This document shows, piece by piece, positions 18,536 to 54,535 of a stretch of DNA of 64,000 nt. The stretch's first letter is position 1. Every line of letters begins with the position of its first letter. Source of the DNA: an uncultured Afifella sp. (lineage in GTDB: Bacteria; Pseudomonadota; Alphaproteobacteria; Rhizobiales; Afifellaceae); contig CAMYKZ010000004.1 of NCBI GenBank assembly GCA_947259045.1, forward strand, positions 62,001 to 126,000, given 5' to 3'. Under the pieces are notes generated by a model. That model had not been told where the DNA came from and did not search any database. It saw only the letters and a program-made list of their open reading frames with translations. Both the position numbers and the translations under genes were made by a program.

Positions 18536-19384
18536 TCAGTCGGTTGACTGAATGGTCTGGATCTTCTGGCGGTGTTCGGCAAGCAGGCCAAGGACTGCAG
18601 CGGCTGTCTCCTCGATTGACCGCCGGGTCACATCGATCACCGGCCAGCCCTGGCGGGCGCAAAGCTTGCGGCTTGTGGAAATTTCCTCAGCCACCGCAAT
18701 CCGGTCGACATAGGCTGCCGACCGGTCTTCCGAGCTCAGACCGAGAACGCGGTGCTGGCGCACCTGGACGATGCGGTCGGCGCTGGCGATCAGGCCGACG
18801 ATCAGCGCCTTGCGGGATTTCAGCAGGCCGGCCGGCGTGTCCATGCCCGGGATCAGCGGCACATTGGCGGTCTTGACGCCGCGGTTGGCGAGATAGATCG
18901 ATGTCGGCGTTTTCGACGTCCGGCTGATGCCGACCAGAACCAGATCGGCATCGTCGACATTATCCGGCAATTGGCCGTCATCGTGCGCCATGGAAAAATT
19001 AAGTGCGTCGATGCGCTGGAAGTAGTCCGCATCGAGCACGTGCTGGGCGCCGACCCGGCCGGCGGAGCGGGTGCCGAGATAGGCCTGGAACGCGGTCAGG
19101 ACCGGTTCGAGGACCGACACGGTCGGCACGCTCAGGTCGCGGCATTTTTCATCGAAATAATCTCCAAGATCCGGATCGACGAGCGTGTAGAGCACGATGC
19201 CCGGAGCGGCCTCGATATCACGGACGATCTGGTCGAGCTGTGCCTTTGTGCGAATCAGCGAATGGACATGCTCGATGGCGTGGGTGGAAATATATTGCGC
19301 CGCCGCCGCCCGGGCCACGTTGAGCAGGGTTTCGCCGGTCGCGTCGGATACCAGGTGGAGATGGAAATGGCGTGTGCGGGGCAT
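18536..19384 (-). CDS. ppsR: PEP synthase/PPDK regulatory protein (DUF299)
   Basis: Encodes 282 residues. The DUF299 signature is complete: [14 protein letters not shown] at the N-terminus, the P-loop [11 protein letters not shown] at about residues 152-162, and [22 protein letters not shown]. Family members are both kinase (ADP-dependent) and phosphorylase of a threonine on PEP synthase or pyruvate phosphate dikinase. Its location is informative: I believe this is the family of Rickettsia RP001, the gene bordering the origin in alphaproteobacteria, and here too it reads away from the hemE side. Neither target enzyme is in the window. Confidence 0.94.
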
Positions 19385-19419
19385 CTGGTTTCCTGATTGA
19401 ATTATTCTGGCAACTTGGC

Positions 19420-19461
19420 CCCGAATATCCTGTTGGTGCGCCCGAATAACCTGTTGGTGCG
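19420..19461. repeat. 21-bp tandem repeat at the ppsR edge of oriC
   Basis: Two units of 21 bases (19420-19440 and 19441-19461), both starting cccgaata and ending ctgttggtgcg, differ at one base. They lie 36 to 77 bases upstream of the ppsR start. They may be part of the origin or of the ppsR promoter; no known protein site is recognised. Confidence 0.85.
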
Positions 19462-19519
19462 ACTGTGAAGCAATGGGGATAATCCCGGAAGATCGGCGGC
19501 ACGTGGAATCTTGTTGCGC

Positions 19520-19528
19520 TTTTTCACA
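19520..19528 (+). promoter_or_regulatory. DnaA box
   Basis: tttttcaca matches the relaxed consensus TTWTNCACA at every position. Confidence 0.6.
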
Positions 19529-19620
19529 TATTGATCAACAGGCAGAGCAAACGGGACAAACCGCAGTGAGGTTTTCCTCTGCATGTCAATAAAGTGATTT
19601 TATCCAATATTGTCCCATGA

Positions 19621-19629
19621 TTATGCACA
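19621..19629 (+). promoter_or_regulatory. DnaA box
   Basis: ttatgcaca matches the strict consensus TTATNCACA at every position, at the edge of the most AT-rich part of the gap. Confidence 0.8.
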
Positions 19630-19805
19630 GGATAGCCTGTCGTAATATTCTGGAATATAAATGTTATTTCATTTTGCCGCCGTGTGTGGATGATCGCATG
19701 TCGCCGTTGGCGGGACAATCGGGCGCAGCGGAAATTCAACGGGATTGATTGTGGAGTATTATGAATCCCCCTAATCCACCGACAAACAGAAACAAAAGAA
19801 TAGAT

Positions 19806-19820
19806 TTAAGACTCTATTAA
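19806..19820 (+). promoter_or_regulatory. CtrA binding site in oriC
   Basis: TTAA-N7-TTAA matches the full CtrA box perfectly (ttaagactctattaa). A GANTC site (gactc, 19810-19814) lies inside it and another follows at 19822. It is 26 bases upstream of the hemE start. In Caulobacter, CtrA bound at the origin blocks initiation; the same role, or control of hemE, is inferred. Confidence 0.8.
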
Positions 19821-19845
19821 GGATTCAGAATTGGGAAAAAGTGCG

Positions 19846-20865
19846 ATGGGGAAAATGCGGCAGGTTCTGGCTGGAGAAACGATTGCCGTGCCGCCGATCT
19901 GGATCATGCGCCAGGCCGGCCGGTATCTTCCTGAATATCGCAAAGTCCGCAAACAGGCCGGTTCGTTTCTCGACCTGTGTTACAATCCGGAACTGGCGTC
20001 GGAAGTGACGCTGCAGCCGATCCGCCGGTTCGATTTCGATGCCGCAATCCTGTTTTCCGATATTCTGGTGATACCGGATGCGCTGGGCCAGCAGGTTGAT
20101 TTCGAAGAAGGCCGGGGCCCTGTCCTTGGACCGCTCGATCTTGAATCTTTGGACAAAGCCGCCGTGCGCTCGCATCTGGCGCCGGTCTTTGAAACCGTGA
20201 CGCGGGTCCGCGCGGGCCTGGCCGGTGACAAGGCGCTGCTCGGCTTCTGCGGCGCTCCCTGGACGGTTGCGACCTACATGATCGCCGGTCACGGCACGCC
20301 CGACCAGGGTCCGGCGCGGCGATCGGCACTTGGCGATCCCGACCGGTTTCAGGTCCTGATCGACCTTCTGGTCGATGCGTCGGTTGATTATCTGCTGGGG
20401 CAGCTTGAGGCCGGAGCGGATGCGGTGCAGATTTTTGATACCTGGGCCGGAATTCTTGATGAAGAGCAGTTTCAACGCTGGGCGGTCGATCCGGTCCGGC
20501 GGATTGTCGATCGGCTGCGCGCGGTCCGGCCGCAGACGCCGGTGATCGCTTTTGCCAAGGGCGCCGGGGTCAGGATCGGCGATTATGCGACGGCCACCGG
20601 TGCGAATTGCGTCGGCGTCGACTGGTCGGTGCCGCCGGCCATGGCGTGTGACCTTGTCGACGATTCGATTGCCATCCAGGGCAATATGGATCCGATGCGG
20701 CTGATCGTCGGCGGCGAGGCGCTTGACCGGGGCGTGGACCGCGTGCTGGAGGCCTTTGCCGGCCGGCCGCATATCTTCAATCTCGGTCATGGCATCACGC
20801 CCGACACGCCGATTGAACATGTTGAACGGCTTGTCGCCAGGGTTCGCGGCCGGGAGGGAAACTGA
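19846..20865 (+). CDS. hemE: Uroporphyrinogen decarboxylase
   Basis: Encodes 339 residues, normal length. The active-site N-terminus [17 protein letters not shown] is intact, with [33 protein letters not shown] and the C-terminal [12 protein letters not shown]. It decarboxylates uroporphyrinogen III to coproporphyrinogen III in haem synthesis. The ATG at 19846 is preferred; a TTG at 19831 and an ATG at 19855 are in frame. The gene starts directly beside the predicted origin and its TGA overlaps the hemJ ATG by one base, so hemE-hemJ form an operon. Confidence 0.97.
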
Positions 20866-26284: not shown

Positions 26285-26300
26285 TGTTTCACGTGAAACA
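26285..26300. other. parS site 1
   Basis: tgtttcacgtgaaaca, a perfect 16-bp palindrome identical to the consensus parS bound by ParB. It directly abuts the mnmE stop codon. Confidence 0.97.
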
Positions 26301-26354
26301 ATGCCGGCGGATTTTTTGCTTCGCAGCGGTTTCGATCGTCCTGCAATCCGATTA

Positions 26355-26370
26355 GGTTTCACGTGAAACA
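26355..26370. other. parS site 2
   Basis: ggtttcacgtgaaaca, 15 of 16 bases of the consensus with the 14-bp core gtttcacgtgaaac intact. It lies between mnmE and the DUF1801 gene, 24 bases before the latter's ATG. Confidence 0.93.
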
Positions 26371-26393
26371 TCTCAAGGACCGCCGACAGAACA

Positions 26394-26819
26394 ATGACGC
26401 CGTTTAACGACGATGCCGTGGAATCCGTTTTTCAATCCTATCCGCAGGCTGTGCGCAAATGTCTGCTCGCGGTCCGGGAACTGATTTTTGCAACCGCAAG
26501 AGACACGCCGGGCGTGGGGACGATCGTCGAATGCCTGAAATGGGGCCAGCCGTCCTACCTGACGACAGCGCCGAAATCCGGCAGTACGATCCGGATCGAC
26601 GCAGTCAGAAATGATTCGTCGAAATCCGGGATGTATTTTCATTGCCGGACCAGTCTGGTCTCGACTTTCCGCGATATCTACGGGGACCGGCTGACCTTCC
26701 AGGGCAACCGCGCGCTGGTGATGTCCTGCGACGATTCGATCCCTGAGAATGAACTGAGGCATTGCATAGCTCTGGCGCTGACCTATCACCTGATGAAAGC
26801 GGATATTGCCGGCAAATGA
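26394..26819 (+). CDS. DUF1801 domain protein (YdhG-like)
   Basis: Encodes 141 residues. Segments FQSYPQAVRKCLLAVRELIFATARDTPGVGTIVECLKWGQPSY and the later FRDIYGDRLTFQGNRALVM match the DUF1801 family, a small single-domain fold of unknown function. It sits between mnmE and mnmG, which in many relatives are nearly adjacent. The gene is bracketed by parS sites, and the last codons and stop plus parS are repeated exactly at the end of mnmE. This suggests a late insertion at parS. Base composition does not differ visibly from its neighbours. Confidence 0.88.
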   Translation: MTPFNDDAVESVFQSYPQAVRKCLLAVRELIFATARDTPGVGTIVECLKWGQPSYLTTAPKSGSTIRIDAVRNDSSKSGMYFHCRTSLVSTFRDIYGDRLTFQGNRALVMSCDDSIPENELRHCIALALTYHLMKADIAGK

Positions 26820-26835
26820 TGTTTCACGTGAAACA
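26820..26835. other. parS site 3
   Basis: tgtttcacgtgaaaca, perfect 16-bp parS, directly abutting the stop codon of the DUF1801 gene. Together with 10 bases before it, it is identical to the mnmE-end copy (26 bases in total). Confidence 0.97.
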
Positions 26836-29530: not shown

Positions 29531-30351
<821 letters not shown>

Positions 30352-30355
<4 letters not shown>

Positions 30356-31281
30356 CAAAAGCAGGTCACCTGCAAACGAAAGCGCACTCCATGGCAACTG
30401 AACCGAGAAAACGTCTTGGCCGCGGGCTCGACGCCCTGCTGGGCGATTATGCCCCCAAACCGGCCCCGGTGGCCGTGGCATCGAATGACGGTTCCGGCAA
30501 TGATCACGCCGACCGCAAGGTCGTTCCGCTGGGGTTTATCCACCCTAATCCCCGTAATCCACGGACGACTTTTGCACAGGACGATCTCGACGATCTGGCG
30601 ATCTCCATCCAGGCCCACGGCATGGTCCAGCCGATCGTCGTGCGCCCGGTTCCCGGCAAGCAGGACTATTATGAAATCATCGCCGGCGAACGGCGCTGGC
30701 GGGCGGCGCAGAAGGCCGGCCTGCACGATGTGCCGGTCACCCTGCTCGATGTTTCCGATAACGAAGCGCTGGAGCTTGCGATCGTGGAAAACGTTCAGCG
30801 CTCCGATCTTAATCCGGTCGAGGAGGCGCTCGGTTACAATGCGCTGATTGAGGAGTTCAGTTACAGCCAGGCGGATCTGGGCGCGCGCATCGGCAAGAGC
30901 CGGGTGCACGTCACCAATACGCTGCGGCTGCTGAAGCTGCCGCGCGACGTCATCGACTATGTCCGCGCCGGGGCGCTGAGCGCCGGCCACGCCCGGGCGC
31001 TGATCAATGTGGCGGAGGCAAGCGCGCTGGCGGCGCGGGTGATCGAACGCGGCCTGTCGGTGCGCGAAACGGAAAAACTGACCCGGGCGCCGAAACCGCC
31101 GGCGGCGGCGAGAGCCGCGCCGGAAAAGGGCGCCGACACCCGTGCGCTGGAGCAGGAACTGGAAGCCCGGCTCGGCCTGAAGCTGGATATCCGTCACAAG
31201 CTGGATGGCAAAGGCGAAGTGCGGATCGCATACCAGTCACTGGAGCAGTTGGAAGCGGTTTGCCGCAAACTGCGCGGCTGA
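30352..31281 (+). CDS. parB: Chromosome partitioning protein ParB
   Basis: Encodes 309 residues from the ATGA overlap with parA; a second ATG at 30391 gives the classical N-terminus MATEPRKRLGRGLDALLG and may be the real start. The CTPase/ParB domain contains IAGERRWRAAQKAG, the arginine patch, followed by IVENVQRSDLNPVEEALGY; the parS-binding helix-turn-helix is in YSQADLGARIGKSRVHVTNTLRLL; the C-terminal dimer domain is rich in basic and leucine residues. ParB binds the three nearby parS sites and spreads. Confidence 0.98.
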
Positions 31282-51926: not shown

Positions 51927-54455
51927 TCAGGCATTGTCCGTCGGCACCAGGATTTCGCGCTTGCCTGCATGATTGGCGGCGCTGATCACGCCTTCCTGTT
52001 CCATCCGTTCAATCAGCGATGCGGCGCGATTGTAGCCGATGGAAAGGCGGCGCTGGACGTAACTCGTCGAAGCCTTGCCGTCGCGCAGGACAATCGCCAC
52101 GGCCTTGTCGTAAAGGTCGTTCGATTCATCCAGCCCGTTGACCATCGATTCAAAGCTGCTGTCGCCGGCTTCATCCTCATCGGTGATCGATTCCAGATAT
52201 TCCGGAACCCCTTGTGTCTTCAGATGAGCGACCACTTCTTCGACCTCTTCATCGGAGACGAACGGCCCGTGCACACGCTGGATGCGGCCGCCGCCGGCCA
52301 TATAGAGCATGTCGCCCATGCCGAGCAGCTGTTCGGCGCCCTGTTCGCCGAGAATCGTCCGGCTGTCGATCTTCGAGGTGACCTGGAAGGAGATCCGGGT
52401 CGGGAAATTCGCCTTGATGGTGCCGGTAATGACGTCGACGGACGGCCGCTGTGTGGCCATGACGACATGGATGCCGGCGGCGCGCGCCATCTGCGCCAGG
52501 CGTTGCACGGTGCCTTCGATATCCTTGCCGGCAACCATCATCAGGTCAGCCATTTCGTCGATGATGACGACAATATAGGGCATCGCCTCCAGTTCGAGTT
52601 CTTCGGTCTCAAACAGAGCCTCGCCGCTTTCATGGTCGAAGCCGGTCTGCACGGTGCGGGTGATCACTTCGCCCTTTTTCTTCGCCTGGGTGACGCGCTG
52701 ATTGTAGCCGTCGATGTTGCGGACCCCGACCTTGGACATTTTCTTGTAGCGGTCTTCCATTTCGCGCACCGACCATTTGAGCGCGACGATGGCTTTCTTG
52801 GGGTCGGTGACGACGGGGGTGAGAAGATGCGGAATTCCGTCATAGACCGACAGCTCCAGCATTTTCGGGTCGATCATGATCAACCGGCACTGGTCCGGAG
52901 TCATCCGGTAGAGCAGCGACAGGATCATCGTGTTGATCGCCACCGATTTGCCCGAACCGGTGGTGCCGGCAACCAGCAGATGGGGCATTTTCGCCAGATC
53001 GGCGATCACCGATTCGCCGCCGATCGTCTTGCCCAGCGCCATTGCCAGTTTGGCGCGGCTGGTTTCGAAATCCTTCGAGGTCAGGATCTCGCGCAGATAG
53101 ACGGTTTCGCGGCCGACATTCGGCAGTTCGATACCAATGGCGTTGCGCCCGGGCACGACGGCGACACGGGCGGCGATTGCGCTCATGGAGCGGGCGATAT
53201 CATCGGCCAGGCCGATGACGCGCGATGATTTGATGCCCGGCGCCGGTTCCAGTTCATAGAGCGTCACCACCGGGCCCGGCCGGACATTGATGATTTCGCC
53301 ACGAACGCCGAAATCTTCCAGCACGCCTTCCAGCAGCCTGGCGTTCTGTTCCAGTGCAGCGGCGTTGAGGGTCGGGTCTTTCTTGCGCATCTTGGGCTCG
53401 TCGAGCAGATGCAGTGACGGCAGTTCGTACCCGTCCGGCGTCAACAGCGAGCGCTGCGCTTCGCGGGCAACCCGCCGGCCGGGTTTTGGCCGTGCCGCCG
53501 GCGCTGAAACCCGTGCGGCGCCACCTGCAGCGCGGGCTGCCGGCTGGGCGGGTCGGGCAGCAGGCTCTAATGATGCTTCGTCAAAGTCATAGCCGCCATC
53601 GTCTGTCGCAAAATCTCCGCCAAAACTCGGTTCCTGGCGGTATTCGGCCTGGTAATCCGCAATATCTTCGTCGCCGCTGCGGACCCGCGATTGCCGCGCC
53701 GGCGCCCGCATCAGCAATCTGCGGCGTACCGCCGCGCGCGCCAGCAGGCCGCAATGGGTCAGAAATCCGGCTGCCACGGCAAAGGGCCCCGCCGACCAGC
53801 CTTCATCTTCATCAAAGGCGTCGCCGTCTGCTTCGTCCTCCTCGTAAATCGGGCCGGTATCTGAATCGACCTCGAATACCGGCTCGAATTTCGAGCGTTC
53901 ACGGCCGCATGCCTGGTAGATGAGGCCAAGGGAGAATCCGGCAAAAACGACTGCAAACGCCGCCCTCAGACCGGCCGACAGTTCCGGGCCGAACAGCATT
54001 GCCGGAATGTGCAGCACCATGTCGCCGGTGACGCCGCCAAGGCCTGTCGGCAACGGCCACTGGCCGATGACGGGCAGGCATGCCAGCGCCGCCGCGAGCA
54101 CGATCGTGCCGCCGAATGCGGAAAGCGCCTGGGTGATGCCAGAGCGCGGCCGCCGGTGCCGCAGCATGTTCCAGCCGACGATCAGGGCCGGATAGAGAAA
54201 GGCAATCACCGCAAGGCCGAAAAACTGCATCACCAGATCGGCGAAGATGGCGCCGGGCATGCCGAGCAGGTTGCTTGCCGGGTGATCGGTGGCATGGGAC
54301 AGCGACGGATCATTGACGTTCCAGGTCGCCAAAGCGACGATGGCAATGATTGTGGCTGAGAGCAACGCGACACCGCTGAGCGCGACGGCCTTGCGCAGGA
54401 TAAAACCGCGCAGGTTGAATTCAGACGGATCGTCGTAGGCAGCGCCGTAAGTCAT
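51927..54455 (-). CDS. ftsK: DNA translocase FtsK
   Basis: Encodes 842 residues. Four membrane helices in the first 180 residues (for example [44 protein letters not shown]); an acidic linker ([20 protein letters not shown]) and Pro/Ala-rich segment to about 340; the motor domain with Walker [17 protein letters not shown], Walker [16 protein letters not shown], and [24 protein letters not shown]; and a C-terminal gamma winged helix ([28 protein letters not shown]) that reads KOPS sequences. FtsK moves the terminus during division and activates XerCD. A CtrA box lies 66 bases upstream. Confidence 0.98.
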
Positions 54456-54520: not shown

Positions 54521-54535
54521 TTAAGACTGCATTAA
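54521..54535 (-). promoter_or_regulatory. CtrA binding site upstream of ftsK
   Basis: A perfect TTAA-N7-TTAA site (ttaagactgcattaa) whose arms extend to a GGTTAA / TTAACC palindrome (54519-54537). It is 66-80 bases upstream of the ftsK start. Cell-cycle control of ftsK by CtrA is inferred. Confidence 0.75.

Follow-up and report, generated by a model that had tools for sequence, protein, structure and literature searches.

The window, that is, the whole stretch of 64,000 nucleotides analysed here, comprises positions 62001-126000 of contig C4 (187 kb), which belongs to a genome of 4.77 Mb in 275 contigs. Within the window, the intergenic region between ppsR and hemE (19385-19845, not assigned to a strand) is 461 bp long and has a GC content of 0.45. 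On its left lies ppsR (18536-19384, minus strand), which encodes the PEP synthase/PPDK regulator (COG1806/DUF299; PRK05339) and matches NF003742 with 325 bits against a cut-off of 225. On its right lies hemE (19846-20865, plus strand, with the ATG at 19846 or 19855), which encodes uroporphyrinogen decarboxylase and matches TIGR01464 with 400 bits against a cut-off of 303. The nearest named relative of this HemE is that of 'Afifellaceae bacterium IP29b_bin.53'. No differences appear when the ppsR-hemE gap of this bacterium is aligned with that of genome G003 from the window's own family (f1; for the genomes numbered with G, family counts were made by code). The genome encodes DnaA and GcrA, as well as CtrA (NF045991 equivalog, with 421 bits against a cut-off of 350) and ChpT (NF046018, 270 bits, above the NCBIfam cut-off). 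Its CtrA is approximately 85% identical to the Caulobacter CtrA used as the query. A CcrM-like protein is also encoded. Its best PDB match is Caulobacter CcrM (6pbd, 4e-162), and it scores 620 bits, under the 830-bit cut-off that NCBIfam sets for the Caulobacter equivalog.

The position between ppsR and hemE is the known site of oriC in Caulobacter and Rickettsia (PMC1914354), and a first-pass annotation of the DNA had taken the gap for the origin. A perfect DnaA box (TTATGCACA, 19621-19629, plus strand) and a box fitting the relaxed consensus TTWTNCACA (TTTTTCACA, 19520-19528, plus strand) are found where that annotation had placed them. It had also counted two boxes with one mismatch; these are present, but their number is three, all on the minus strand, namely TTATCCCCA (19474-19482, containing the Caulobacter W-box-like TCCCCA), TTATTGACA (19584-19592) and TCATCCACA (19685-19693). 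Matches to TTWTNCACA number 2, where dinucleotide shuffles of the gap give 0.06 (P 0.002), and boxes with at most one mismatch number 7 compared to 1.24, a count reached by 0 of 2000 shuffles. The gap is the densest 461-bp DnaA-box cluster in the contig. Boxes with at most one mismatch are likewise in excess over shuffled sequence in the gaps of the family (14 versus 1.5), of other Rhizobiales families (209 versus 30) and of other orders (86 versus 8). Furthermore, a gap of ~390-470 bp with the same motifs is found in most Rhizobiales examined. Single-strand folding of the gap is slightly above that of shuffles in stability (z -2.2) and carries no weight. At the ppsR end of the region, two near-identical direct copies of CCGAATAWCCTGTTGGTGCG were recognized by eye at ~19421-19462.

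GC skew had been proposed as a check on the position of the origin and gave different answers on two contigs. Contig C4 shows a weak skew with a minimum at C4 44,353, ~37 kb to the left of the gap, so that the skew of this contig is uninformative on origin position; it was set aside and a contig of the same family was sampled instead. In that genome (G008), forty 20-kb samples were taken of the 1.97-Mb contig holding hemE. The best skew change-point is the 20-kb block with ppsR-hemE, with means of -0.020 to the left and +0.041 to the right (Mann-Whitney p 9e-7). In 3-kb bins, the skew starts to rise at the one that holds hemE. While the change-point is at 1.39 Mb, the cumulative skew at coarse resolution reaches its minimum in the 1.30-Mb block, since the skew is near zero directly left of the gap. 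Taken together, the skew switch in G008, the density of DnaA boxes, the near-constant gap length and the DnaA-box excess in all groups make 19385-19845 very probably the chromosomal replication origin (oriC) of an Afifellaceae (Rhizobiales) bacterium, which bears out the initial assignment.

A perfect CtrA box of the form TTAA-N7-TTAA (TTAA-GACTCTA-TTAA; TTAAGACTCTATTAA) is located at 19806-19820 on the plus strand with a GANTC site, GACTC, inside its spacer at 19810-19814, exactly as first annotated. Between the box and the ATG of hemE at 19846 lie 25 bp. Its single occurrence in the gap compares to 0.01 in dinucleotide shuffles (P 0.012), and in the whole contig TTAA-N7-TTAA occurs only twice, whereas TTAA-Nk-TTAA with k = 4-6 or 8-11 never occurs. 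The other exact copy (54521-54535) is located upstream of a minus-strand ftsK-like gene (51927-54455, named by eye from its translation), at a distance of ~65 bp, and overlaps a DnaA-like TTAACCACA at 54532; this gene is a candidate CtrA-controlled division gene.

The CtrA box is conserved in the family and in other Rhizobiales families. Eight of the 11 family origins carry an exact TTAA-N7-TTAA (shuffle mean 0.05), compared to 0-3 for other spacers, while it is absent from the remaining 3/11. Seven of these eight boxes are within ~55 bp of the hemE alignment anchor and that of L100 is mid-gap (-262); GC-rich family origins (0.56-0.61) carry the box too. In 91 origins of other Rhizobiales families, 34 matches were found at the 7-bp spacer versus 0-5 for any other spacer of 1-14, with shuffles giving 1.4. 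In a revised set, from which Rhizobiaceae genomes were removed and to which two named members of other families were added, the box is present in 31/91 origins from other families of Rhizobiales, and 19 of the other families sampled are positive. The exact box is present in 1/63 named origins of the Rhizobiaceae/Brucella group and in 1/25 origins of other alphaproteobacterial orders. Each whole genome of the family (3.8-4.8 Mb) holds 9-34 exact boxes; with a spacer of 8 bp the count is 0-6. Because the genomes hold so few, a box in the 0.4-0.5-kb gap of 8/11 genomes is far beyond chance, even with shared ancestry allowed for. On a PpsR tree the box label needs 19 changes compared to 31 with shuffled labels (0/500 as low), and on it all of the Rhizobiaceae clade is box-negative. 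These counts come from an exact-motif search, which misses degenerate sites. Sites with one mismatch were tried and rejected as evidence: they show no excess in the Rhizobiaceae group or in other orders, and only exact boxes were therefore used for the claim.

Beyond the features annotated earlier, a conserved unwinding module is newly described here and predicted at the hemE-proximal end of the gap, consisting of a weak DnaA box followed by DnaA-trios. The family alignment reveals a conserved block ~100-60 bp before hemE that reads ATTGTGGA...GAATCC-N3-TAATCCAC and continues into an A-rich tract. In the window its left end is ATTGTGGA (19748-19755, plus strand; TCCACA on the other strand). 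The anchor of the module is a divergent DnaA box, TAATCCACC (19772-19780, plus strand), which has 2 mismatches to TTATCCACA and occupies the same place in 8/11 family genomes. It is followed by seven NAN trios, GAC-AAA-CAG-AAA-CAA-AAG-AAT (19781-19801, plus strand), the predicted unwinding tract, and the CtrA box starts 4 bp past the last of them. Box and trios satisfy the search rules for a basal unwinding system (BUS), which ask for a DnaA box with at most 2 mismatches, a spacer of at most 16 and at least 3 NAN on the same strand (PMC8287927). A box with at least five trios is found at the same position in 8/11 family genomes, whereas the module was not found at its usual place in L094, L096 and L100. 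The trios are also visible as a periodicity of adenine. In 32 origins from 14 groups, anchored on TAATYCAC, adenine peaks at each third base (0.78, 0.75, 0.75, 0.91, 0.97), with a periodicity S of 0.366 compared to a maximum of 0.178 in 5000 shuffles; kinship inflates larger sets, and with one sequence per family the value is 0.22-0.32 (shuffle sd 0.07). Rhizobiaceae and Brucellaceae have trios in the same register, behind GACTC. In these two families (L015-L092) this GACTC, a GANTC site, is near-invariant between the weak box and the trios, ~60-100 bp before hemE, which places a methylation site within the predicted unwinding module.

Four GANTC sites had been reported in the gap and all four were recovered, on the plus strand. 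Besides the site inside the CtrA spacer, these are GAATC on the ppsR side (19506-19510), GAATC within the family-conserved GAATCC-N3-TAATCCAC (19763-19767) and GATTC directly past the CtrA box (19822-19826). Their density is 8.7/kb in the gap compared to 1.37/kb in the rest of the contig, a difference of ~6 times. Against dinucleotide shuffles of the gap's own AT-rich composition there is no enrichment (4 versus 2.0, P 0.14); clustering was hence dropped as strong evidence and is retained only as a density contrast. Over the whole window GANTC is strongly depleted (117 versus 312 expected); genomes with CcrM-type methylation show such depletion. Across origins, GANTC exceeds shuffled sequence in the family (42 versus 18), in the named Rhizobiales set (278 versus 145) and in other families (310 versus 204). 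It occurs 80 times over 93 gaps in the -100 to -80 bin, and often lies at the edge of, or within, the unwinding module. The GANTC site inside the CtrA box was also considered as a conserved device and rejected, as the exact hemE-proximal boxes of relatives are without it. In Caulobacter, CcrM is not required for the control of initiation (PMC3973325). The earlier suggestion of methylation-controlled initiation thus retains the enrichment of GANTC in these origins, but is opposed by the dispensability of CcrM for initiation control in Caulobacter and by an in-box site that relatives do not share, and for the origin in the window it is a weak claim.

These elements can be arranged into a putative mechanism. 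DnaA would load onto the boxes in the ppsR-proximal two thirds of the gap (19474-19693) and would then extend onto the trio tract at 19781-19801, starting from the weak box TAATCCACC at 19772; this tract would open first. Phosphorylated CtrA (CtrA~P) bound at 19806-19820, just past the trios, would block this opening and would probably repress the hemE promoter as well, so that initiation would be licensed once active CtrA is lost. Methylation of GANTC would act as a modulator at most, through occupancy of the CtrA box or through hemE expression. Demonstrated are the location, the motifs together with their conservation, and the presence of DnaA, CtrA, ChpT, GcrA and CcrM; the order of DnaA assembly, the unwinding at the trios and the gating by CtrA are what we infer from the arrangement of motifs. 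As a whole, DnaA loading, opening at the trios and a block by CtrA~P would form the best explanation for 19385-19845, and we hold it to be reasonably probable. Several observations count against it: the skew of C4 has no turn at the gap, a single CtrA box contrasts with five in the Caulobacter origin (Cori), the box in the family stands directly before hemE, and three of the 11 members are without an exact box.

The readings that compete with this mechanism touch on either the origin or the CtrA box. The missing skew turn in C4 would suit an origin located elsewhere, with the motifs between ppsR and hemE as relics, for example at the second-densest DnaA-box cluster of the contig (30321-30578), which spans the end of parA and the start of parB and holds a perfect TTATCCACA at 30321 as well as one-mismatch boxes at 30536 and 30570. 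That cluster is situated within parA/parB coding sequence, however, and the skew switch of G008 falls at the ppsR-hemE block, while the parS sites at 26285-26835, 6-7 kb from the gap, are centromere sequences of the kind expected in the vicinity of an origin; an origin outside the gap is accordingly given hardly any credence. The parS sites (TGTTTCACGTGAAACA; 26285-26300, 26355-26370 and 26820-26835; two perfect, one near-perfect) lie between mnmE and gidA, upstream of parA/parB. In L017, L033 and L105 (the Rhizobiales family f28 and named relatives), parS-like TTTCACGTGA or GACACGTGA is present within the oriC gap itself, at its hemE-proximal end, adjoining a conserved TTGTGG block. It is similarly very improbable that the CtrA box is a chance pair of TTAA in AT-rich DNA at which nothing binds. 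The composition of the gap and the shortness of the motif, with 8 fixed bases, would allow for this, but the eight boxes in the 11 family origins, the preference for the 7-bp spacer both there (8 versus 0-3) and in other Rhizobiales families (34 versus 0-5), and the boxes in GC-rich family origins all argue against it.

A stronger competitor accepts the gap as the origin and takes the CtrA box as a promoter element only, through which CtrA would repress or time hemE with no direct role in initiation. Several points favor it: the box stands 25-40 bp ahead of the ATG of hemE, most boxes of the family crowd the hemE anchor in the same way, boxes in the order-wide survey are no nearer to DnaA boxes than random positions, and Cori without CtrA sites shows only mild disturbance of replication in laboratory culture (PMC4468827). 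Conversely, about half of the boxes in other Rhizobiales families lie in the middle of the gap, at 180-300 bp from the hemE anchor and in most cases with at least 180 bp to ppsR, and the box of L100 shows such a placement in the window's own family. A box that is kept in the gap at varying distance from the promoter is a better fit to an origin role, and the two roles are compatible, as in Cori. We therefore consider control of hemE alone rather unlikely, yet a live rival, and gating of the origin by CtrA as the best reading of the conserved motifs. The lack of proximity beyond random also led to the rejection of an overlap between CtrA and DnaA boxes as a general mechanism; competition for DnaA boxes, as in the Cori model (PMC4468827; PMC4285127), is for this reason unsupported as a general mechanism. 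The most far-reaching proposal, which we put forward tentatively and with more doubt than belief, is that direct control of oriC by CtrA may be widespread in Rhizobiales (~20/45 sampled families) and absent in Rhizobiaceae/Brucella, and that in Afifellaceae CtrA may gate the far end of the trio tract rather than compete for double-stranded DnaA boxes.

A 2015 review describes CtrA sites as 'not seen' in origins other than those of Caulobacter and possibly Rickettsia prowazekii (PMC4468827). The first-pass annotation had presented CtrA control of an origin outside Caulobacter as its suggestion. The site itself stands and occurs in many Rhizobiales families, but its novelty in that broad form does not, given the earlier cases of Rickettsia and Hyphomonas (PMC7200025). 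Within the accessible literature, the new part would be the predicted CtrA sites in origins of Rhizobiales outside Rhizobiaceae, since CtrA of Sinorhizobium meliloti and Brucella abortus does not bind the respective origins (PMC4433202; PMC2877005). From work on these two species came the view that in Rhizobiales CtrA is not used directly at the origin. The excess of CtrA boxes, specific to the 7-bp spacing, in origins of many families of the order suggests that these model species are exceptional. This raises a testable evolutionary question, namely whether direct gating by CtrA is ancestral and was then lost, or was gained repeatedly. In addition, the CtrA site is here paired with a conserved predicted unwinding module at single-base resolution.

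The closest likeness is to Cori of Caulobacter crescentus (hemE / CC0001), which has the same flanking genes, a similar length (404 bp), DnaA boxes, a TTAA-N7-TTAA CtrA site, GANTC sites and a host with CtrA, ChpT, CcrM and GcrA. The window's gap between ppsR (COG1806) and hemE, both with NCBIfam profiles above their cut-offs, and its cluster of DnaA boxes above chance make it a member of the hemE-linked alphaproteobacterial kind of oriC by the features tested. The gap also has a conserved CtrA site and clustered GANTC, and the genome encodes CtrA with its phosphorelay and CcrM. The origin differs from Cori, in addition to the number of CtrA boxes, in having ordinary DnaA boxes (TTATGCACA) where Cori has G-boxes (TGATCCACA) (PMC4468827; PMC4285127), and neither a strict-consensus G-box nor a strict-consensus IHF site is present in the gap. 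The CtrA box of the window abuts the predicted unwinding tract, whereas the CtrA site of Cori overlaps a G-box (PMC4468827; PMC4285127). For CtrA-controlled initiation, as first annotated, what speaks in favor is the conserved, spacing-specific site, found both in the window's family and in many families of Rhizobiales. CtrA sites overlapping or abutting G-boxes were looked for and are absent from the gap, and the origin is for that reason not classed as a Cori-type CtrA origin, although it may work like one.

The oriC of S. meliloti and B. abortus (Rhizobiaceae clade) belongs to the same order and, within the clade, has the same gene neighbours. Near hemE it has a homologous element whose trios (GAC-TCT-AAG-AAA-TAG-AAA) keep the same register. 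It is unlike the window in the near-complete lack of the CtrA box, as seen in the 63 named origins. This agrees with experiment: ChIP-seq in S. meliloti found neither CtrA nor its motif at the origin (PMC4433202), and PMC2877005, citing earlier work, states that B. abortus CtrA does not bind its origin, so that the survey reproduces both negatives. The predicted module resembles the BUS of Bacillus subtilis and other bacteria in its DnaA box, short spacer and tandem same-strand NAN trios (PMC8287927). It differs in its weak box (2 mismatches), in many trios that start with C instead of T/A, in a GANTC site that in Rhizobiaceae falls in the spacer and in most of the window's family over the last trio, and in a function that is predicted. 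Among systems outside the order, the origin of Rickettsia prowazekii has CtrA sites (Brassinga 2002, as cited in PMC4468827 and PMC1914354), and in Hyphomonas neptunium a CtrA ChIP-seq signal was reported at or beside the origin in 2020 (PMC7200025). These belong to other orders, for which order-wide conservation had not previously been shown, and share with the window the presence of CtrA, or of its predicted site, at or beside an origin outside Caulobacter.
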